Position numbers and translations under genes: made by a program
The notes under the pieces: model-generated
Told to the model about the DNA's origin: nothing
The model's database searches: none
What the model saw: only the letters and a program-made list of their open reading frames with translations
Shown here: piece after piece, positions 1 through 12,664 of the stretch
How positions within the stretch are numbered: position 1 is the first letter of the stretch
Layout: every line of letters begins with the position of its first letter
Source of the DNA: Cafeteria roenbergensis
Lineage: Eukaryota > Sar > Bigyra > Bicosoecida > Cafeteriaceae
Direction of reading: 5' to 3'
DNA length: 64,000 bases
NCBI GenBank assembly: GCA_008330645.1
Contig: VLTN01000017.1
Coordinates: 1-64,000, forward strand

Positions 1-446
1 AGAAGAGCTCAGCTACAAAGGACAACTTGAGCTCCATTGTGCCCTTCGTCATCACGACCACGGGACGCATGGGACCGGCGGCCTTCGCCTTCCTCAAGAA
101 GGTGGCGGACACGGCCTTCGGTGATCGGCCGAGGGAGCGTGCGCGCTGGGCCTTCCGCTGGCTGTCGAGGCTGAACGAGGTCATCGCCAAGGGACTGGCG
201 ACCCAGCTGATCGGGCAGACGCAGTACCTGCGGCAGCAGGTGGAGCGTATGCGGTGAGCAGGGGCGGCTGTGTGGTGACTCGAGGCAGTGTGATGGCAGG
301 GATCTGGGATTTGAGACCTGGGATTGTGGGTTTGGCGCGGTTTGTGACTCATCGGTGATGGAGTTGCTGGATTGGTGATTGGTGAGTCTGTGAATCGAGT
401 GTGTGGCATGGTTTTGCGAGCTTTTGACCCCCCCCAACGATGTTCA
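1..446 (+). mobile_element. Retrotransposon copy A, 3' part (left end outside window)
   Basis: Positions 1-257 encode the C-terminal part of the element protein, ending at TGA 255-257. Positions 258-446 are the 3' untranslated region with the terminal C-run and AACGATGTTCA. The coding part looks identical to copy E over the same stretch, and the UTR differs at only a few positions. A four-base TTCA filler separates it from copy B. Its true 5' end is not visible. Confidence 0.85.
258..446 (+). repeat. Common 3' untranslated module of the retrotransposon (first of five)
   Basis: The same roughly 190-bp module recurs at 658-845, 5754-5942, 6544-6732 and 8095-8283. It is G/T-rich on the plus strand, with four GGG runs close together (about 300-334), two ATTGG boxes (inverted CCAAT) near 373-384, and a terminal C8 run. 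It is the sequence immediately upstream of each following copy. It is therefore placed where a promoter for that copy would have to lie. Confidence 0.75.
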
Positions 447-451
447 TTCAT

Positions 452-845
452 TCACGACCACGGGACGCATGGGACCGGCGGCCTTCGCCTTCCTCAAGAA
501 GGTGGCGGACACGGCCTTCGGCGACCGGCCGAGGGAGCGTGCGCGCTGGGCCTTTCGCTGGCTGTCGAGGCTGAACGAGGTCATTGCCAAGGGACTGGCG
601 ACCCAGCTGATCGGGCAGACGCAGTACCTGCGACAGCAGGTGGAGCGTATGCGGTGAGCAGGGGCGGCTGAGTGGCGACTCGAGGCAATGTGATGGGAGT
701 GATCTGGGCTCGGGACTTGGGATTGTGGGTTTGGCGCGGTTTGTGACTCATTGGTGATGGAGTTGCTGGATTGGTGATTGGTGAGTCTGTGAATCGAGTG
801 TGTGGTATGGTTACGCGAGTTTTCGACCCCCCCCAACGATGTTCA
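452..845 (+). mobile_element. Retrotransposon copy B, severely 5'-truncated
   Basis: The copy starts inside the last roughly 70 codons of the element protein (equivalent to position 52 of copy A). It runs through the stop codon at 655-657 and the full 3' untranslated region. It cannot encode reverse transcriptase or endonuclease. Its last bases contain an ATG (839-841) that reads in frame into copy C. Confidence 0.85.
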
Positions 846-3800
846 CTGGGAGCCAGACCAGAGGCTCCGTGGACTATGGCACAACGGACGAGGCCAGTGA
901 CGAGGGGTCGGAGGACGACGGCGAGGCGAATGAGGAGGAGGACTGGCAGATGACGGGCGACAGCGCAGCCAGCCAGGACCAAGTCGAGGAGACAATGGAC
1001 GACGGAGGATGGAGTCCGAGGAGCGAGACGCCAGAGGATGATGGCGCCTCGGACGAGGAGGAGGACGGGTCGCTGGCGGGCGACAGCGCAGCCAGTGCGG
1101 GGCTAGAGGGGTCGACGGTGGACAGTGGTGAATCGGGGGAGGTGGAGGATGACCCGGCGGCGGATGATGAGGAGGCGAGTAGGGAGGAGGACGAGTCGGC
1201 GGAGGAGGCTGGCGCAACTGGCGGAGCGCTGGGTCCATCGGCTGCAAACGCGGCGGGGGACCCGAGTGTAGGACAGGTTCACAGCACCATGCCGCAGCTC
1301 GAGGTGGAGGTGCCGGCGGTGGCAGGAGTCACAGGGCAGTTGCCCGGACCGAACCGGACAGCGGAGCCACCGACGGGCGAGGAGGGGGACATGGATGCAA
1401 GCCACGGATTGGAGGGAGATGACGCGGAGGACGTGACGGGAGCGATGGCGGAGGCAGGAGGCAACGAGACGCCACTCTCTGACGGAGAGATGGCGTGTGG
1501 GGACGGGCGGTGCAAGCGGTGCTCCACCAGCTCTCCGGACAGCCTCGCCAAGGGAGCCTTTCTGAGACACGGATGTCCCTCCAAGAAGTGGGTGCAGTGG
1601 TACATCAAGGCGCTGCTCCGGCAGTGCACCTTCGGCGAGGCCTTTGCCGCGGACAAACTGCGGCAGCGCAAGGCGGTGAGCGAGCACGTGCCGGTGGCGC
1701 TCGAGCCCACCTTACAGCATGGCACCATGGCAGCGGCGGCGTCCCTGGCGGGTGCTGGGCGCAGAGGCAACGCGGAGGGCCACCCGACCGTCGAGCAAGC
1801 GGCGGGAATAAGGGTGCAGCTCACCACGGTAGCGGCCCTGAAGGCGTATCTGCGGCGTCAAAACGGCACTTCCGCCAAGGACCTGGCGAAGAGCATGGCA
1901 TCGGCGGGCACCGTCGCGCAGGACAGGGAGACGCTGGAAGCGTTGATGAACCTGCACCCGAGCGAGGACGAGGTGGTCGACGGCACAGTGGAGGGAGAAG
2001 CGCCGGACCTCACCGACTCCGAGCTCCGGGAAATGGTGTCGGCGGCGATTCAGTCGATGCCGCACAAGAAGGCCGTGGGCCCGGACGGCATGGTCGCGAA
2101 GCAGCTGGAGAACATCGCCGAGAAGGACCTGGATGCGCTCGTGTCATTTGTCCGAAGGGCGTTGAGGAACGACCTCTCTGCCGAGGAGCGCAGGGTCCTC
2201 GGGTCGTCAACCCTGATGGCGATTCCCAAGGGAAACGGCAAGATCAGGCCGGTGGCCATGGTCTCGGGCCTGGGCAAGCTGGTGGGCAAGGTGGTGAACA
2301 CCATCCTGGGGAAGCACGGATTGCTGGACCAGCTGCGCTTCCAGTTCCTGGGCTGCCGAGACGGGTCGTGCAGGCTGGTCCATGCTGTCCGTACCGCGTT
2401 CGAGGAGGGAGGAGCCAAAACGGTGGTGGTAGCGTTGGACATGGCCAACGCCTACAACTCCGTCTCCAGGCGCGCGATGATCGAGGAGGTGCGGCGGTTG
2501 GACGAGAAGCTCGTGCCGGCGGTGCTGGCGCTGTACGGCTCGTCCAGCCCGCTCCTCTTTGCCACGGACGAGGGCGAGGTCTTTGAGCTGAAGTCCAACA
2601 GGGGCGTGCGTCAAGGCGACCCGGCAGCGGGCGCACTGTTTGCGATCGCAGTGCACCCCCTGGTGGACGAGGTGAGGCGCGCCTTCCCAGATGTGCTCAT
2701 CTTGCAGATGGCCGACGACACGACGCTGGTGGGCCCGAGGAGGAGCGCCTTCAAGGCAGCCCAGATGCTGGCTGAGCGGCTCAGCACGGTGGGGCTGCGG
2801 ATGAACACCAGCAAGACCCAGGTGCTGTGCAAACGTGGACAGCGCGAGGAAACGAAGGCCAGAATTCAGCGGGTGATGAAGCGGAGTAGGGACGATCCAG
2901 GGTCCCCACCCTCGGTGCTGGAGGGGTGCCACCTCACCGAACGGAGCGTGGCGGTGCTGCAGTGTCCTGTGGGGGAGGACCTCTCACCGGAGGTGGCTCT
3001 AGAGCACTCGATGAAGCGACTGGAGAAAGAGTTTGGGCCGGCGGCGGAGCGCCTGCTCGCGGGCATCGAGGTCTGCGGGCTCAAGCGGGCGCACCACCTG
3101 CTGCTGTCGGTGGTGGGCCAGAAGTTCAGCTACCTGCACAGAGCAGCGGGTGCGGCGGCGGGCCAGGAGCTGGCGGTGTTCCATGCGGCGCTGCTGGCCA
3201 ACCTGTCGGCAGTAGCGCACAAGACGGAGCTGGATGCGATCGGCCACGCGCTCTCGGACGAGATGTGCACGGTGACCGAGGACGGCTTCCGTGAGGCCAT
3301 GTCCAAGGCCATCGAGGCGCTTGTTCGGGGGCTGCCGGACGAGCACGCAAGGCGGGAGGCGTGGTGGGCGCTCCTGGGCCGGGAAGCCGACGGTGTGACT
3401 CGGCTCGCATCAGCAGCGTCCAACCCGGCCTTGAAGAAGGGAGGCTACGCTCAGATGAAGCTGGCGAAGATGCTGAGCAAGGGCTGCAAAGCCGGTGGCA
3501 TGGGCCTGCCTGGCGTGGCGCAGTTCCGCTTCGAGGCGACAGCGGGCTTCATCGAGGCCGTTCGGGACATGCGGAAAGGGCGGTTCGAGATGGCGCCACC
3601 GCCGGAGGAGGCCCTCGACGGGGCCGACACTGGTGGAGGCGGAGGAGAGCCGGCGTCGGGGAGTGGTGCCGGAGCGGGACCAGCCAACGCCGGCGAGGCG
3701 GAAGCGGAGGATGAGTCAGGTGCGGCGGCTGCTGCAGCGGGCGGCACGCCGTGGGTGGACCACCCGGCGGTCGGAGAGAGCGAGTCCAAGGAGGACTGCG

Positions 3801-5753
3801 AGGAGGGGCCGGCGCACGGGCAGCAGCTTGCAGGTACGCTGGACGGCTGGCTCGTCAGCGGTACGGGGGGAGCGGCTGAACCGGAGCATCAGCCAACACC
3901 GACAAGCGGAGGCCAGACGGGTGGTGGAGGTGCGGCTGCCGCCAGCGCGGCGGGAGCGGCGACCGAGATGACGACGGGCGGCGGCGGCGCAGCGGCAGCT
4001 AGTGCGGCTGGCGCTCCAACCGGCCAAGAGACATCTGATGCCGCACAGCCGAGAGCGGATGCGGCACAGGTCTACTCGGTCAGGCGAACGCCGGCGATCG
4101 GGTTGGCCAGGGACGGACCCGACGCGGACGCGGACGGCAACGACCCCAACTGGAAGGGCATCTCGCTCAAGAAACTCGTGATGCGGGCGCTGAAGCGCTC
4201 AGACCGCAGCGATGCGACCAAGGAGGTGGGCGACATCCTGCTGCGATGCGAGGAGGTCGCCAAGGGAGCTTACCGGGACTACGAGCGGGACAGCAAGGAG
4301 TACAAGGACGCCTGCACCGAGGCACGGTACTTCAGGCCGGACAAGGACTGCGTCGTGGGCAAGGAGGCCGACCTTCATGCCGCCAGGGTGAAGAAGCGCT
4401 ACCAGCTGGCGCACGTGTGGAGGTCGGACATCGCGGGGGCTGTCGAGGGCCTGGAAGAGCTGCGCGCCGAGATCGAGGAGCTGGCGCTGGAGGCGATGAT
4501 GGAGCTCAGATCTGACGACGAGTCGTCGGATGACATGGAGGCAGCGGCAAACCTGGTGGAGGAGTTCATCAGGGCCTGCAAGGGAGCCCGCTGCCTGGCC
4601 GCAGCGACAGGGTTCGAGGGCTTCTTGCCCGACACCCTGGGTAAGCTGCCGGGCGAGCTGAAGGCCAAGCTCCGCAAGTGCCTGTACGGCGACGGGGTGA
4701 CGGCGCGGGGCGAACGAGCAGACCGAGGCGCCCTGGCAGCGCAAGATGGTGCTGCATCACGACGACATGCTGCGCATCAAGCACGAGTGTGTCTTCCTGC
4801 GCCGTCTGGCCAAGGCGCGCAGGGCCTGCACAGCACGCTGCAGGGCCGAGGCGCTGGCAAAGGGCACGCCGGAGAAGCGTGTCGCCAACATCGACGACCC
4901 GGCCATGCTACGCGTCATGAGCGACCTGGTCGCGTTCCGAGAGGCGTGCGTGCCGGGAACGCACTACTGGCTCCGCAACACGATGATGGGGCCCCGCGGG
5001 CTCACAGACGAGGAGTTCGCGGTGGTCACCCGCTACCGCATCGGAGCCTCCGAGGCCGACCACGTGGTGCCGGACGGAGTGTCGATCAACTGCGCGTGCG
5101 TGCAGCGGGACACCACGGCGAGAGGCACTGTCCACATCGGCGGGGTCTCCGGCGTGGCACACCACCTGGCGCGTTGCCGCTGCGGCAAGGGCTCCACCAT
5201 CCGGGCGCACAACGACGTCCGCGACGTCCTGCACGCGGCGGTGCGCTCGGCGGGGCTGCAGTCGGTGGTGGAGCCCTCCAGCTGGCAGGACGGGCAGGCG
5301 CGCTTCGGGTCCCAGCCGGGGTCCAGCGAGGCCGCGCGCAAGCGACCGGACCTGCGGGTGCACGTCGACTTCGAGACCACCCGTCTCGTCGACGTGCAGA
5401 TCACCTCGGCAGTGAGCAAGTCCTACGTGACGCAGGGCCTGCAGAGCATGGACGCCTTTCTCGAGCGCCGTGAGAATGACAAGATGAGGGAGTACAAGAA
5501 GAGCTCAGCTACAAAGGACAACTTGAGCTCCATTGTGCCCTTCGTCATCACGACCACGGGACGCATGGGACCGGCGGCCTTCGCCTTCCTCAAGAAGGTG
5601 GCGGACACGGCCTTTGGTGACCGGCCGAGGGAGCGTGCGCGCTGGGCCTTTCGCTGGCTGTCGAGGCTGAACGAGGTCATCGCCAAGGGACTGGCGACCC
5701 AGCTGATCGGGCAGACGCAGTACCTGCGGCAGCAGGTGGAGCGTATGCGGTGA
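839..5753 (+). CDS. R2-type retrotransposon protein: reverse transcriptase plus restriction-like endonuclease (one frame break)
   Basis: One long reading frame of about 1,640 residues, broken once. The N-terminus (to about residue 140) is Glu/Asp/Ser-rich. A Cys/His cluster (CGDGRCKRC, then HGC) near 1495-1580 may bind zinc. The reverse transcriptase lies at about 2040-2850, with GPDG, KIRPVAM, ALDMANAYNS, the NRGVRQGDP box and the catalytic MADDT (about 2707-2721). After an Ala/Gly-rich spacer (3600-4080), the C-terminal part has CAC and a HHLARCRC zinc knuckle (about 5088-5190), then KRPDL ... VDVQITS (about 5338-5408). These match the knuckle and PD-D core of the R2-type endonuclease. The frame shifts in a four-G run at 4707-4710; copy E has three G there, so one extra G (mutation or sequencing error) is the likely cause. 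ATG 839 lies in copy B; no other good start lies close by. Confidence 0.8.
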
Positions 5754-5942
5754 GCAGGGGCGGCTGAGTGGCGACTCGTGGCAGTGTGATGGGAGTGATC
5801 TGGGACTTGAGACTTGGGATTGTGGGTTTGGCGCGGTTTGTGACTCATCGGTGATGGAGTTGCTGGATTGGTGATTGGTGAGTCTGTGAATCGAGTGTGT
5901 GGCATGGTTACGCGAGTTTTCGACCCCCCCCAACGATGTTCA
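846..5942 (+). mobile_element. Retrotransposon copy C, near full length (5.1 kb)
   Basis: This is the only copy with the acidic N-terminal region, reverse transcriptase and endonuclease together. It opens right after the 3' end of copy B with a small potential hairpin (GGAGCC 849-854 pairing with GGCTCC 863-868). The coding region starts at once with no obvious 5' untranslated region, so it is either full length with a very short leader or slightly 5'-truncated. It ends with the family 3' untranslated region (5754-5942). Confidence 0.85.
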
Positions 5943-5949
5943 TTCAACC

Positions 5950-6732
5950 CACACCACCTGGCGCGCTGCCGCTGCGGCAAGGGCTCCACCATCCGGGCGC
6001 ACAACGACGTCCGCGACGTCCTGCACGCGGCGGTGCGCTCGCGGGGCTGCAGTCGGTGGTGGAGCCCTCCAGCTGGCAGGACGGTCAGGCGCGCTTTGGA
6101 TCCCAGCCGGGGTCCCAGCGACCGCGCGCAAGCGACCGGACCTGCGGGTGCACGTCGACTTCGAGACCACCCGTCTCGTCGACGTGCAGATCACCTCGGC
6201 GGTGAGCAAGTCCTACGTGACGCAGGGCCTGCAGAACATGGACGCCTTTCTCGAGCGCCGTGAGAATGACAAGATGAGGGAGTACAAGAAGAGCTCAGCT
6301 ACAAAGGACAACATGAGCTCCATTGTGCCCTTCGTCATCACGACCACGGGACGCATGGGACCGGCGGCCTTCGCCTTCCTCAAGAAGGTGGCGGACACGG
6401 CCTTCGGCGACCGGCCGAGGGAGCGTGCGCGCTGGGCCTTCCGCTGGCTGTCGAGGCTGAACGAGGTCATCGCCAAGGGACTGGCGACCCAGCTGATCGG
6501 GCAGACGCAGTACCTGCGACAGCAGGTGGAGCGTATGCGGTGAGCAGGGGCGGCTGAGTGGCGACTCGAGGCAGTGTGATGGCAGGGATCTGGGATTTGG
6601 GACTTGGGATTGTGGGTTTGGCGCGGTTTGTGACTCATCGGTGATGGAGTTGCTGGATTGGTGATTGGTGAGTCTGTGAATCGAGTGTGTGGTATGGTTA
6701 CGCGAGTTTTCGACCCCCCCCAACGATGTTCA
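5950..6732 (+). mobile_element. Retrotransposon copy D, 5'-truncated
   Basis: The copy begins within the zinc-knuckle region (equivalent to about 5160 in copy C) and runs through the stop codon (6541-6543) to the common 3' end. Compared with C and E it has small indels around 6040 and 6110-6125 which change and then restore the frame, so the endonuclease segment is altered. Seven bases, TTCAACC, separate the end of copy C from recognisable element sequence. Confidence 0.8.
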
Positions 6733-6750
6733 TCATAAATCTACCCGCTA

Positions 6751-8094
6751 GTGCATGTGTGCAGGTCTGACATCGCGGGGGCTGTCGAGGGCCTGGAAGA
6801 GCTGCGCGCCGAGATCGAGGAGCTGGCGCTGGAGGCGATGATGGAGCTCAGATCTGACGACGAGTCGTCGGATGACATGGAGGCAGCGGCAAACCTGGTG
6901 GAGGAGTTCATCAGGGCCTGCAAGGGAGCCCGCTGCCTGGCCGCAGCGACAGGGTTCGAGGGCTTCTTGCCCGACACCCTGGGTAAGCTGCCGGGCGAGC
7001 TGAAGGCCAAGCTCCGCAAGTGCCTGTACGGCGACGGGGTGACAGCGCGGGCGAACGAGCAGACCGAGGCGCCCTGGCAGCGCAAGATGGTGCTGCACCA
7101 CGACGACATGCTGCGCATCAAGCACGAGTGTGTCTTCCTGCGCCGTCTGGCCAAGGCGCGCAGGGCCTGCACAGCACGCTGCAGGGCCGAGGCGCTGGCC
7201 AAGGGCACGCCGGAGAAGCGTGTCGCCAACATCGACGACCCGGCCATGTTCCGCGTCATGAGCGACCTGGTCGCGTTCCGAGAGGCATGCGTGCCGGGAA
7301 CACACTACTGGCTCCGCAACACGATGATGGGACCCCGCGGGCTCACGGACGAGGAGTTCGCGGTGGTCACCCGCTACCGCATCGGAGCCTCCGAGGCCGA
7401 CCACGTGGTGCCAGACGGCGTGTCGATCAACTGCGCGTGCGTGCAGCGAGATACCACCGCGAGAGGCACCGTCCACATCGGCGGGGTCTCGGGCGTGGCA
7501 CATCACCTGGCGCGCTGCCGCTGCGGCAAGGGCTCCACCATCCGGGCGCACAACGACGTTCGCGACGTCCTGCACGCGGCGGTGCGCTCGGCGGGGCTAC
7601 AGTCGGTGGTGGAGCCCTCCAGCTGGCAGGACGGGCAGACGCGCTTCGGGTCCCAGCCGGGGTCCAGCGAGGCCGCGCGCAAGCGACCGGACCTGCGGGT
7701 GCACGTCGACTTCGAGACCACCCGTCTCGTCGACGTGCAGATCACCTCGGCGGTGAGCAAGTCCTACGTGACGCAGGGCCTGCAGAACATGGACGCCTTT
7801 CTCGAGCGCCGTGAGAATGACAAGATGAGGGAGTACAAGAAGAGCTCAGCTACAAAGGACAACTTGAGCTCCATTGTGCCCTTCGTCATCACGACCACGG
7901 GACGCATGGGACCGGCGGCCTTCGCCTTCCTCAAGAAGGTGGCGGACACGGCCTTCGGTGATCGGCCGAGGGAGCGTGCGCGCTGGGCCTTCCGCTGGCT
8001 GTCGAGGCTGAACGAGGTCATCGCCAAGGGACTGGCGACCCAGCTGATCGGGCAGACGCAGTACCTGCGGCAGCAGGTGGAGCGTATGCGGTGA
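6751..8094 (+). CDS. Intact C-terminal half of retrotransposon protein (endonuclease module)
   Basis: An uninterrupted 447-codon frame from ATG 6751 covers everything after the spacer: a helical acidic segment, the cysteine/histidine knuckle (CAC, HHLARCRC), the KRPDL ... DVQITS endonuclease core and the basic C-terminus. It lacks reverse transcriptase. The ATG lies just at the junction, so the frame is open by chance or is a fragment; expression is unknown. It gives the reference reading for the frame break in copy C. Confidence 0.7.
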   Translation: MHVCRSDIAGAVEGLEELRAEIEELALEAMMELRSDDESSDDMEAAANLVEEFIRACKGARCLAAATGFEGFLPDTLGKLPGELKAKLRKCLYGDGVTARANEQTEAPWQRKMVLHHDDMLRIKHECVFLRRLAKARRACTARCRAEALAKGTPEKRVANIDDPAMFRVMSDLVAFREACVPGTHYWLRNTMMGPRGLTDEEFAVVTRYRIGASEADHVVPDGVSINCACVQRDTTARGTVHIGGVSGVAHHLARCRCGKGSTIRAHNDVRDVLHAAVRSAGLQSVVEPSSWQDGQTRFGSQPGSSEAARKRPDLRVHVDFETTRLVDVQITSAVSKSYVTQGLQNMDAFLERRENDKMREYKKSSATKDNLSSIVPFVITTTGRMGPAAFAFLKKVADTAFGDRPRERARWAFRWLSRLNEVIAKGLATQLIGQTQYLRQQVERMR

Positions 8095-8283
8095 GCAGGG
8101 GCGGCTGTGTGGTGACTCGAGGCAGTGTGATGGCAGGGATCTGGGATTTGAGACTTGGGATTGTGGGTTTGGCGCGGTTTGTGACTCATTGGTGATGGAG
8201 TTGCTGGATTGGTGATTGGTGAGTCTGTGAATCGAGTGTGTGGTATGGTGACGCGAGTTTTCGACCCCCCCCAACGATGTTCA
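6751..8283 (+). mobile_element. Retrotransposon copy E, 5'-truncated, adjoining host DNA
   Basis: The copy starts at the equivalent of about 4410 in copy C and ends at 8283. The next bases (TTCAACC, 8284-8290) lead into the remains of an ankyrin gene. It is the innermost copy, and so was probably the first to arrive. Between D and E lies about 18 bp of unrelated filler (6733-6750). Confidence 0.85.
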
Positions 8284-8297
8284 TTCAACCTCAGTGA

Positions 8298-8770
8298 TCA
8301 CGCGGCCGCCAATCTCACGCGGGTCTTGGCCTCCAGGTCGGCGCCCAGGTCCAGCAGCAGCTCCACCGTGTCCTTGTGACCAAGCTCAGCCGCCACGATC
8401 AGCGCCGTGAATTCTTTCTGCGAGGCAATGGTCCATCAACAACCACAGCCGTCACGGCATGCCACCGGGGACGCCGCCGGCTCGCCCCCTGCAGCCCATC
8501 TCACTGCCCCGATCGCCACCGCGGTCCAAGGCCAGCCCCTGGCGCCCGCGAGCGGCCTGCCTCGAAGGAAACAGCCTCGCCTGGAAGGAGAGAGACGCTG
8601 GAATGGCTGCAATACACGCCGCGACGTCGAGCGCTCACGTCTGCGTCGTTTTTCCAGTCCACCGGTGCGCCCACATCGAGCAGCCTGCATGCCTCGGCGG
8701 TGCTCCCAGCCTTCGCCGCCTCCCATAGCGCGCTTCCCAATGCACGTTCATCCATGGAAGGGGTGGTCAT
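8298..8770 (-). pseudogene. Ankyrin-repeat gene, probably truncated by the retrotransposon array
   Basis: Exon 1 (8770-8639) starts MTTPSMDERALG and holds a half repeat ending GAPVDWKNDAD. The intron 8638-8418 has donor GTGAGCG and acceptor CCTCGCAG. Exon 2 continues in phase with a canonical ankyrin repeat (TALIVAAELGHKDTVELLL, then GADLEAKT). Read on, the frame stops at 8298 after only 83 residues, too short for the family. A good donor (GTGAGA, 8318-8313) lies just after GADLEAKTR, so the original gene probably spliced onward into repeats now lost or moved by the insertion at 8290. Whether the remnant is expressed is unknown. Confidence 0.6.
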
Positions 8771-8985
8771 GCTGTGAGATGTGTGGGGTGGCAGTCAAGC
8801 GCTGGTCGATGCGGGCAGGGCGCAGCGACTAAATTGGCGACGGTTGTCGGCAAATGGGGCAGAGCCCCGCAAGCCCTTGGCGTGGAAAAACTCAGTCCCT
8901 CTCAGGCCCGTCACCGCTCCCGCCTTGGCACAGGCTCGGCTCTCAGCCCGACCCGCTGCGGGACGGTCCTCCACTGCGCTGTGCA

Positions 8986-10248
8986 ATGGCGGCCCCCACG
9001 ACCGACCCTGTCCTGGCGCGCTCGGTGCGGGACGTCGCGTACGTGCCCACGGCGCGCAAGCGGCAGCTTCTGGACTTGTTCGTGGCCGACTCCCCTCTTC
9101 CAGGCGCGCCCCTCGTGCTCTTTGTGCACGGGGGCGGCTGGAAGCGGTTTTCGAAGCAAGAGCATGCCCACATTGGGCGTGCCTGGGCCAAGCTTGGAAT
9201 CACGACGGCGGTAATGTCGTACCGCATCAGCGGGCTCGAGGAGTCCACCCGGCTGGCCATCACCGCCGTTTGGAGTCTCGCCATCGGGTCTTTGGGGTTC
9301 CTGGCAGATGCAACTGGTGCTGCTCCGGGATGGCTGGTCGCGTCGTGCATTGCTGTGGGGGCGTTCAGCGCGATTACCGGCTTGCGGCTGTATCGCCAGT
9401 GCGGCGAGGAGCCTCGAATTCGCTGGCCAGCGCACCGCGAAGACGTGGTGTCGGCCCTAAAGTTCCTTGGCAGCGCTGCCCAGGCCGGTGGCCAGTTTGA
9501 GGGTTTCTACAACCCTCGAAACGTCTTCGTTTGTGGTCACTCCGCCGGGGCGCACATGACGTTGATGACGTGCTTCGACGTGCCGCTGCTTGCCAAAGCC
9601 GGCATCGGCCTCATGTCCTTGCCTCCCGTTTCCCCCGGTGTGTCTCCGCCGCCCGTCCCGGCGGAGTCCTCTCGGCCTGCGGAGGGGAGAACACTCAAGG
9701 AAGTCAGCTCTGGCGCAGCCGCGGAGGACCTCCACGTGGACCTGGTTCCCGAATCGGAGTGGAGCCTTGCTGTGCCTGCGGGCTGCGGAGCCCCTGCAAA
9801 GCCTGGCCTGGTGATTCGCGGCGTGATTGCCATGTCACCGCCCGCAGTCAGCGCTATGATGAGCGGATTCATGATTCACCGCATGTACATGCGGCCGGCG
9901 TTCGGCTTCGATCCTGCGCAGTGGCCCCAGGCTTTTCCTGACGCGCTGCTCCGCACGGCGGTCGAGGAAGGGCGCTGCCCGCGCCCGCCGCTGCTGCTCG
10001 CGACCGCGGACCCAGGCTACGACCTCGGGCTTGAGAAGCACGTGGATGAGCTCATGCCAATTTTGGCAGCGGCCAAGGTGCCGGCGACGCGAATCACCAT
10101 CACGGGGTCCAACCACTTCACCGAGATGACGCGCATCGGGGTTCCGGGCACGCCGGCCGAGTCTATCATGACCCCAGCGCTCGTGGCGTTCGTGGAGGAG
10201 CACGGCGTCAAGCGGCACACTCCCGCAGAGGACAAAGAGGAGTCCTAG
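8986..10248 (+). CDS. Alpha/beta hydrolase, membrane-associated esterase (isoprenylcysteine methylesterase-like)
   Basis: A single-exon 420-residue protein of the hormone-sensitive-lipase/carboxylesterase type. It has the oxyanion motif HGGGW (residues 48-52), nucleophile elbow GHSAG (184-188, Ser186), a likely acid Asp342 in TADPGYD and His377 in GSNHFTEM, so the triad looks complete. Between the oxyanion loop and nucleophile are two hydrophobic segments (about residues 89-136) that could anchor it in a membrane. This layout recalls plant isoprenylcysteine methylesterases, but substrate is inferred only. A Ser/Pro-rich insertion lies near residues 210-260. ATG 8986 (GTGCAATGGCG) was chosen because translation from the upstream in-frame ATG 8854 gives unconserved sequence. 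Confidence 0.75.
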   Translation: MAAPTTDPVLARSVRDVAYVPTARKRQLLDLFVADSPLPGAPLVLFVHGGGWKRFSKQEHAHIGRAWAKLGITTAVMSYRISGLEESTRLAITAVWSLAIGSLGFLADATGAAPGWLVASCIAVGAFSAITGLRLYRQCGEEPRIRWPAHREDVVSALKFLGSAAQAGGQFEGFYNPRNVFVCGHSAGAHMTLMTCFDVPLLAKAGIGLMSLPPVSPGVSPPPVPAESSRPAEGRTLKEVSSGAAAEDLHVDLVPESEWSLAVPAGCGAPAKPGLVIRGVIAMSPPAVSAMMSGFMIHRMYMRPAFGFDPAQWPQAFPDALLRTAVEEGRCPRPPLLLATADPGYDLGLEKHVDELMPILAAAKVPATRITITGSNHFTEMTRIGVPGTPAESIMTPALVAFVEEHGVKRHTPAEDKEES

Positions 10249-10497
10249 GCGCTCGCTCGTCTTGGCATCCGAAGAACGAGCAGTGCTTGACAAGTGACAT
10301 GCGAGCGTGTGGAAGTGCTCCCGCTGTTCGTGTTCAGTATTCGGGCTGCCAAGCACGCCATGACACACCACGGTCGCCTGCCTCGTCTGCCGCACGCAAA
10401 CAGCGCGCACAGGCCGGCAAGCAGTGCCTCCGGGCACACTGCCGAGGAGGGCTTGGCGGCGGGACCGTCGCGTGCCTCGGGAAGGCGGTTGCGTGCC

Positions 10498-12664
10498 TCA
10501 CTTGGCTGCCACCAAGTCGGCAGCGCGCGGCGCAACCTTTCGGGACACGTATTGCGTGTCCAAGTCAGCGTTGAAGTAGGAAACGGTGAACCCGTCCGTG
10601 TCCAAGTCGAGGATGGCAAAGCCAGCATCGGGGGCGTCTCCCGTGGATTCCGCCTTGGTGTCCGCTGCGTGATGCCACTTGATCGACCCAGTTGGGTTCT
10701 TGTCCTGCAGCGGGTGGGATGCCGACGGGCCGGATTGAGCAAAACGCGCGCCGTGGGTTGGGGGGGGGGGTGGATCGATGCGCGACGGCTTGCAGAGCGA
10801 GCCCCCGCTGACGAGCTGGGCTGTGGTGCAACGCAGCGGCAGCATTGGCTCCCTCACCTCGTTCGTCCACTCATAGCAGCAGCCGTGGCCGACGCCGGAC
10901 AGAATGTACGACACGCCCTTGTATTCGGCGTACTCTTGGCAATGGTCGTGCCCGCTCAGGTAGTGAGCTCCGTACTTCTCAAGCATCGGCTGCAGCAGCG
11001 CGTCCAGGATCAGCGTTGGCCCGTGCGAGCACCCTGCGATCCGAAGAGCATGTGGCGCATTGCTCGAGGGGGCATCAAGGGGATGTGGGGCGTGGCGCCC
11101 ACCAGTTTGAGCGCATGGCTCGCATTTTAGCCGCCCCTCTCCTATCTTTCCCCACCCGCACCCCCTGGCAAGCGCTCACCGGAGATGACCGGGTAGTGGC
11201 CGAACACGAACACGAAGTCCGCGGTGGAACTTGAGAGCTGCGATTCGATCCAGTCCCACTGCGACGAGGCAACCACGGCGTCGGCCGGACCAGGTGGCTG
11301 CTGAGTGGGGTCGTCACCCGTGGTCATGCCGGCAAGCATGACAGTGTCAATGGCGATGAAGTGAGCAGAGAACGATGCCCCGTCCGATCCTTTGAACGAG
11401 AGTGTCTTGGAGTAGTACGTGCTGGGCATGTCCCAGCGGTCGCTCAGCGCCGTGTACGCCACCTCAGCCGACACGTTGCCTTTGTAGTCTGCGGCGCGCG
11501 CGAGTGGGCGGGCGGGCGTGCCGGCGAGCGAGACGCGGCGTGGACGGCAGCCAAGCGATGTCGAGCGCCTCGCGCAGGGACGCGGAGGCTGGCGCGCCGA
11601 TGGCAAGTCGCAAGCGAGGGACTATGCCGCGCCACGGCGACGCCCACGCGTGCCTTCCACTTCGACAAGGGGCCTGGGCCGGATTTCGCCCGGCCCGAGT
11701 CGGGCGGCGGGTGCAAGGTCGCACCGTGGTTTCCAAGAACGGCAAAAAAGGGGATGTCCTCCAGCGCGCTGCCGTTGAACACAGCCTCGAAGGTGGCCTC
11801 GAACCGAAGCGAGTGGGCGTCGCCGGAGATTCCCTGCGGCCGTGAGACGTGCGACGCTTGTGCAGCCAGGCTCGAGCGCATGGAGTCCATCAAAGTGCCT
11901 CTCGCCACGCATGGCTCCAACGCGCAACGGCCGCCGTCCCCTGCCGTCACCAAGACCCAGCCCTTGCGATCGTAGCGGACGCAATGCGGCGCGCAGAGCA
12001 CCCTGCCCACGCAGTGCATGCGCATGCAAGATTCGATGGGCGAGACGCGTCCTCACAGCTGGGTAAAAGTTATCGCCCAGCAGGAGGGCCGCGCTCAAGG
12101 GATTATCGCGGCTGTATCGCGCAAGGGCCTCCGCACTGCGCGTTGAGGAGTTGGCGAAGGAGGAAGCGGGGGAGGGGCACAGGAGCGGGGAAGGGGTGGG
12201 AGAGAAGAGGCGCGCAGCAGGTGGGCCTCGAGCGCGCGACCGAGATTCGATCCGCCGCCAAGACTGAATTCTGCCTCTATCGCCCCTTGCAGGCCTCAAA
12301 GCTTCGGGGCTGCTGGTCAAACCGTCCCACCCTGGCGGCAGGAAACGGGCAGCGTCGCGCTGCAACGTCGTGGCGGCCTTACGTTGCAAGCTCGGGCGGG
12401 TTGTAGTACGGGGGCGTGCCTTGGCCGCCCCAGTCGCCGATGAGGGCAAGTTTGCGCCTGCGGTCAGTCTCATGGATGATGATGCACGGGAGCACACAAG
12501 CGCGGCTCTTGGGTGCGGTGAGCAAGGGCTTGCCAGAACGCCGGCAACAGCAACAGCTGGTTCCGGAGCAGGAGTGACTTGCCTCACGACGTGGAGTTTG
12601 CCGGCACTGTTGCAGTGCAGCGGGCGGCAACCAGGCTCAGGAGGATTGCAGAGACACGAAGCAT
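10498..12664 (-). CDS. Tartrate-resistant-type (type 5) purple acid phosphatase, seven exons
   Basis: Secreted metallophosphatase of the mammalian ACP5 type. Exons: 12664-12588, 12457-12383, 12135-12057, 11833-11725, 11488-11180, 11033-10858 and 10704-10498. All six introns are GT-AG (donors GTGAGG, GTAAGG, GTGAGG, GTGCGA, GTGAGC, GTGAGG) and phases agree, giving 343 residues against 325 in human ACP5. A signal peptide (MLRVSAILLSLVAARCTA) opens exon 1. All metal-ligand motifs are present: GDWG (exon 2), GDNFY (exon 3), GNHD (across the exon 4/5 junction), GHYPV (exon 5) and SGHDH (exon 6). It hydrolyses phosphate monoesters at a Fe/metal centre, probably in a vacuole or outside the cell. It is the most intron-rich gene here. 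Confidence 0.88.

Follow-up and report, generated by a model that had tools for sequence, protein, structure and literature searches.

The five-copy array of a LINE-type element at the start of contig C17 of Cafeteria roenbergensis is probably (we put the probability at about 0.7) a chromosome-end array, built by a LINE that, we infer, adds itself to chromosome termini. The evidence consists of the terminal position of such arrays, their inward-facing 3' ends, the variable 5' truncation of the copies, telomere-like stubs at some junctions, one copy capped by a telomere-like repeat and a predicted telomerase (TERT) gene.

The array in the window and its element

The window, that is the whole stretch of DNA analysed, is the 64 kb of C17:1–64000 within the 167-contig genome of 36,303,456 bases. 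The assembly of C. roenbergensis (now C. burkhardae) BVI is described in the available part of its report as a Canu draft with 70.1% GC (PMC6972860). A photosynthetic alga was rejected as the source, the genome having no PF00504 match. The common 3' end CCCCCCCCAACGATGTTCA occurs in the window at 428, 827, 5924, 6714 and 8265, always on the + strand, against a chance expectation of 0.02 occurrences when up to 3 mismatches are allowed. In a self-comparison of the window the copies are about 94–98% identical over their shared part. The sequence downstream of the array 3' ends is different each time, and the 5' cut point also differs from copy to copy. This agrees with the first-pass annotation, which had described five same-strand copies with a common 3' end and variable 5' break points, lacking poly(A) and pointing toward host genes: poly(A) is absent from the array 3' ends, TTCA units are found in its place, and the 3' ends face an ankyrin-repeat stretch (PF00023) on the opposite strand. 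The features of the array are as follows.

1–454, + strand: LINE copy 1, 3' part only, with a TTCA-repeat tail and open at the contig start; 1–450 is 97–98% identical to 5497–5946 and 7838–8287
449–845, + strand: LINE copy 2, about 0.4 kb, 5'-truncated, beginning a few bases inside the copy 1 tail; 448–845 is 97% identical to 5545–5942
846–5946, + strand: LINE copy 3, the longest of the five, truncated on its 5' side at 846 and ending at 5942 followed by TTCA
2222–2842, + strand: reverse transcriptase domain of copy 3 (PF00078, E=3e-21, residues 459–665 of the frame from 848)
5058–5750, + strand: C-terminal zinc-knuckle and putative restriction-like endonuclease region of copy 3 (CCHC and RPD-x-D motifs, by eye)
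5950–6736, + strand: LINE copy 4, 5'-truncated; 5950–6733 is 97% identical to 7499–8284
6733–6756, + strand: filler beginning TCATAAATCTACCCGC that separates copies 4 and 5 (junction C17:6732)
6757–8287, + strand: LINE copy 5, innermost, 5'-truncated, with a C-terminal frame open to 8094; 6741–8290 is 97.3% identical to 4399–5949, the exact start being placed by eye
8284–8291, + strand: junction of array and host DNA, TTCA then ACCT (GATGTTCA/TTCAACCTCAGTG), scored as a stub through the motif AACCT
8301–8435, − strand: host ankyrin-repeat coding stretch adjoining the innermost LINE, a flank outside the element (PF00023, E=3.8e-7)

The longest copy in the window (846–5942) is known to be 5'-truncated because the copy at the start of contig C3 extends at least 428 bp farther upstream of the point where the window copy begins. 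A single-base difference between copies 3 and 5 near 4708, which may be an assembly error, breaks the long frame of copy 3. The filler between copies 4 and 5 is, by eye, possibly a decayed telomere-like stub and lies outside the 14 stubs counted below. Unique host sequence to the left of position 1, which the first-pass annotation had named as evidence against a telomeric array, is absent from the assembly, since C17 itself begins at window position 1. To the right of the array is a host gene with an alpha/beta-hydrolase-like domain at 8992–10248 (BD-FAE and Abhydrolase_3). Ankyrin-repeat-like sequence is frequent at the inner border of the arrays, as seen at 8301–8435 in the window and in flanks on C3, C50 and C59 (by eye and by BLAST similarity).

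The element is a non-LTR retrotransposon (LINE), having a LINE-type reverse transcriptase, a common 3' end and variable 5' truncation. The reverse transcriptase motifs LDMANAYNSV, RQGDPAAGALFA and MADDTTLV can be read by eye in copy 3, and comparison of this domain with the PDB identified LINE-1 ORF2p and R2 chains (E 8e-5 to 5e-4). Of the earlier description as an R2-type LINE, the searches confirm the reverse transcriptase (PF00078, PDB); the R2-type label rests on motifs read by eye, namely the CCHC and RPD-x-D pattern, which resembles the C-terminal CCHC and PD-(D/E) signature of a restriction-like endonuclease. The C-terminal region at 6739–8094 has no Pfam match and no PDB match, 4701–5753 has one Pfam match, below its cut-off, and an AlphaFold model of the putative endonuclease was set aside (pLDDT 41.6). 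An APE-type endonuclease is absent from the Pfam matches of the element. Between copies, pN/pS of the C-terminal frame is 0.27 (63 open ungapped pieces, 1539 pairs; 1 piece with a stop and all gapped pieces were dropped), which may point to a functional source gene and is a rough sign only, because the pairs are non-independent and some pieces overlap. An Rfam search of positions 1–12000 of the window found no RNA family match; for the C17 array alone, this result and the ankyrin coding flank exclude an R2-style insertion in 28S rRNA genes. No relatives of the reverse transcriptase were found in viral contigs.

Position and orientation at contig ends

Copies of the LINE are concentrated at contig ends, almost all of them in a single orientation. 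The genome-wide search for the 3' terminus that the first-pass annotation had proposed was carried out with the pattern CCCCCAACGATGTTCA, which matches 268 sites (116 forward and 152 reverse; reversed-pattern control, 0). The 205 sites listed comprise the first 100, those matching narrower patterns (55 with a base other than T next, 78 with a T and then another base) and others; 19 of them, on contigs shorter than 60 kb, were dropped, leaving 186 to be classified. Among the matches listed, and with a limit of 20 kb, 164/186 are terminal with the 3' end inward, 5/186 are terminal and outward and 17/186 are internal. Counted by contig end, for contigs of 60 kb or more and again among the matches listed, 63 of the 65 array-bearing ends are wholly inward (p=1.2e-16, treating contig ends as independent), as expected by the first-pass annotation for arrays of this kind. 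A 15-kb limit gives 156 inward, 5 outward and 25 internal sites among the matches listed, with 59 of 61 ends wholly inward. The first 100 sites listed divide at 15 kb into 84 inward, 2 outward and 14 internal; the 15-kb terminal zones account for 4.4% of the total length of the 27 contigs on which this percentage is based. On the unselected contigs C1–C18, inward arrays are present at 19 of 36 ends and outward arrays at one. Ten contigs, including C17, have inward arrays at both ends (among the matches listed).

Outward sites among the matches listed are limited to two ends, the start of C10 (2 sites) and the end of C85 (3 sites). The stretches concerned are C10:1–12044 and C85:98017–101936, and the array at the start of C85 is inward; a fusion, a misjoin or internal copies are possible explanations for both. 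Eleven internal copies and the two outward copies at C10 were examined individually, thirteen in all. Each is a solitary, truncated piece, between 16 bp and about 1.3 kb long, and they are 86–97% identical where alignable. A clear target duplication, of 8 bp, is present in one of the thirteen (C14:161345), none being definable inside a head-to-tail array, and doubtful ones are present at C7:203269 (6-bp) and C6:303368 (5-bp). Because there are internal copies, one with a clear target duplication, the LINE can also insert inside chromosomes. The scatter with target-site duplications that had been named as counter-evidence to a telomeric element is therefore found in part, in 17 of the 186 listed sites by position and in 1 of the 13 examined copies by clear duplication.

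The contig tips themselves were also read. Of the 107 tips read, 54 fall within the LINE with its 5' side facing out and 2 fall within it the opposite way round (1 tip was masked). The first 35 readable tips were unselected (LINE at 11 of the 35), and those after C18 were mostly chosen for having sites. The exact repeat CCTAACCTAACC occurs twice genome-wide, at C7:3–14 and C57:5–16 (reversed control, 1). C57 starts with CTAACCTAACCTAACC, followed directly by a truncated LINE. C7 starts with ACCCTAACCTAACCCAACC joined to a broken element whose C85 copy runs on past that point, and from its sequence this tip looks like telomere addition onto a broken end. An array directly beside a telomere-like repeat, about which the first-pass annotation had asked, is thus found at the C57 start, the exact repeat being limited to these two tips. 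Because the telomere-like repeat is found at 2/107 tips and is under 20 bp at each, the real terminal structure is not seen in the assembly. Telomeres of the TTAGGG type were rejected: (CCCTAA)x3 has no exact match, none with spacers of 0–3 (reversed control, 1), and 1 match with up to 2 mismatches against 15 in the reversed control.

Some ends carry other elements distal to the LINE, a Ngaro-like element at C7 and a non-LINE, AT-rich stretch at the end of C1. The latter (C1:1521501–1525500) is partly AT-rich, contains repeats and is perhaps an endogenous virophage. The tyrosine-recombinase (Ngaro-like) retroelement was located at C7:2559–3218, C44:540–1200, C74:8779–9439 and C85:92741–93401, with a PF00589 match below its cut-off (E=3.9e-5). 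Of its six close copies (94–100%), four neighbour LINE arrays no more than 10 kb from a contig end, those at starts being on the + strand and the one at an end on the − strand; this element, too, may have a preference for chromosome ends. At or near several LINE arrays (C13 start, C28 end, C62) there is a satellite of about 72 bp. The starts of C16 and C53 are AT-rich within a GC-rich genome and are possibly endogenous viral elements; the start of C15 consists of N.

Junctions, telomerase and the origin of the arrays

Seventy-five LINE 3' junctions were compiled genome-wide, of which 72 are distinct. The LINE ends in one TTCA unit at 40 of these, two at 31 and three at 1. A telomere-like stub is found within the first 30 nt at 14 of the 72 distinct junctions, compared with 1, 2, 3, 3, 2, 2 and 2 of 71–72 in the next seven 30-nt windows, which served as the control. 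A stricter test for CTAA scored 10/72 at nt 0–25, 0/72 at nt 25–50 and 2/72 at nt 45–70. By class, stubs occur at 8/25 host or other junctions, 6/41 LINE-to-LINE junctions and 0/6 internal or outward junctions; the C61 stub, one of the 14, has its motif only at nt 22–28 and may be due to chance. The remaining 58 of 72 have no stub, a result compatible both with direct addition to ends and with stubs that have eroded completely. At the 41 distinct LINE-to-LINE junctions the next copy begins at 39 different places, from reference position 1 to 5081. On the stub counts and these scattered starts, most copies are joined directly to a truncated copy or other DNA and a minority to telomere stubs. 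With starts so scattered, insertion of the LINE into its own 3' end, the other possibility raised by the first-pass annotation, is not supported and was rejected.

The Cafeteria genome encodes a predicted telomerase (TERT). PF12009 has two weak co-linear matches on C17, both within one open frame, and a 1050-residue piece of this frame reaches 33.9 bits, above the cut-off of 25. The sole PDB match of the piece is Tetrahymena TERT (E=0.003), and by eye one can make out motifs T, 1, A and B'. A PF12009 search of 14 control genomes found no match and therefore provides no positive control. Telomerase-independent ends as in Drosophila are ruled out by the PF12009 and PDB matches to TERT on C17. 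The likeness to Drosophila that had been drawn earlier does not extend to the host, because TERT is encoded and a telomere-like repeat is present at two tips.

If the LINE does add itself to chromosome termini, the 3' hydroxyl of an eroded end or of a telomere stub would prime reverse transcription of the LINE RNA, and slippage during reverse transcription would produce the TTCA repeats. Once a copy is in place, its exposed 5' end could erode, receive a telomerase cap or be lengthened by addition of a further copy, LINE and telomerase thus alternating, and recombination could amplify some array units. End maintenance may be divided between the LINE and telomerase, or the LINE may be a nearly harmless guest at the ends. 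Endonuclease-independent L1 insertion at telomeres in DNA-PKcs-deficient cells, as described in the available part of PMC4700185, is a precedent for priming at uncapped ends. The first-pass proposal that the LINE caps or patches chromosome ends stands as regards terminal position and orientation; that the arrays extend or protect the ends is what we infer. A more specific version, put forward tentatively and at low odds, is a hybrid telomere in which the LINE and not telomerase would supply most terminal DNA, with short degenerate telomerase tracts alternating as primer sites or temporary caps.

Insertion targeted to telomere repeats, as by MoTeR, FoTeR and SART/TRAS, would have the endonuclease cut telomere tracts, the tracts between copies having since been mostly lost. 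The excess of stubs at junctions (14/72 against 1–3 of 71–72 in the control windows) and the presence of both TERT and a telomere-like repeat speak for this origin, which we nevertheless consider unlikely given that 58/72 junctions carry no stub and that such stubs as exist are short and degenerate, in contrast to the 3–7 repeats that FoTeR typically adjoins (available part of PMC12857005); by eye, there is also no fixed register within the repeat. Recombination-type amplification within end arrays is suggested by LINE tails at a regular 1,053-bp spacing at C76:136699–146602 and by identical junctions recurring on C4 (390-bp spacing, C4:5632–6412); identical junctions also recur on C3 (1162931/1165454). 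An origin of the arrays mainly by unequal exchange or break-induced replication of a few founding insertions would explain these cases but is highly improbable, as 72 of the 75 compiled junctions are distinct and the starts of the next copies scatter along the element. Internal LINE clusters that broke the assembly and only seem terminal are scarcely credible, even in a Canu draft (available part of PMC6972860) where other repeats, such as the tandem repeats at C5 and C13, end contigs: breakage of an internal array would produce an outward-facing end for every inward-facing one, a pattern contradicted by 63/65 wholly inward array-bearing ends, and two tips bear the telomere-like repeat. Addition of the LINE to chromosome termini remains the preferred reading.

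Relation to known telomeric retrotransposons

Telomere-building retrotransposons are known from few lineages. Those listed in the available part of PMC10088271 belong to insects, Giardia, Chlorella, a fungus, an anole and rotifers, and include no stramenopile. No account of a stramenopile telomeric LINE or of Cafeteria telomeres was found among CC-licensed PMC papers, and the word start 'telomer' occurs 0 times in the available main text of PMC6972860 and of the eLife 2021 virophage paper (PMC8547959). The telomeric LINE is a kind already known, to which the Cafeteria case would add a member, and an inward LINE array is a practical marker of a chromosome end in such assemblies.

In Drosophila, HeT-A, TART and TAHRE have their 3' ends inward, with variable 5' truncation and no target duplication. 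As in Cafeteria, they form head-to-tail arrays at chromosome ends in the descriptions available in part, and the direct joining at Drosophila ends is like that of most copies of the Cafeteria LINE. Unlike the HeT-A/TART system, Cafeteria has a predicted TERT, a telomere-like repeat and no poly(A). Zepp of Chlorella forms nested arrays and is L1-like with poly(A), whereas the Cafeteria LINE is without it. Like the Cafeteria LINE, Zepp has accumulated in the telomeric region of a unicellular organism (available part of PMC10088271). The fungal MoTeR1 and FoTeR are likewise LINEs at chromosome ends beside telomere motifs, and in Fusarium 3–7 telomere repeats typically adjoin the FoTeR 3' ends, according to the available part of PMC12857005. 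Where FoTeR sits on 3–7 repeats, the Cafeteria LINE has no recognisable stub at 58 of 72 junctions.

GilM and GilT of Giardia form head-to-tail arrays and have a restriction-like endonuclease. Like the Cafeteria LINE they are LINEs of a protist found among telomeric sequence, and for Giardia both telomerase and telomeric transposons are listed (available part of PMC10088271). The Cafeteria element differs from them in its stramenopile host, its TTCA tail units and the degenerate stubs at some junctions. Going by their descriptions, it nevertheless resembles GilM and GilT. With a predicted TERT beside dense LINE arrays at its ends, Cafeteria is a place to ask how a species with telomerase drifts toward retrotransposon telomeres.
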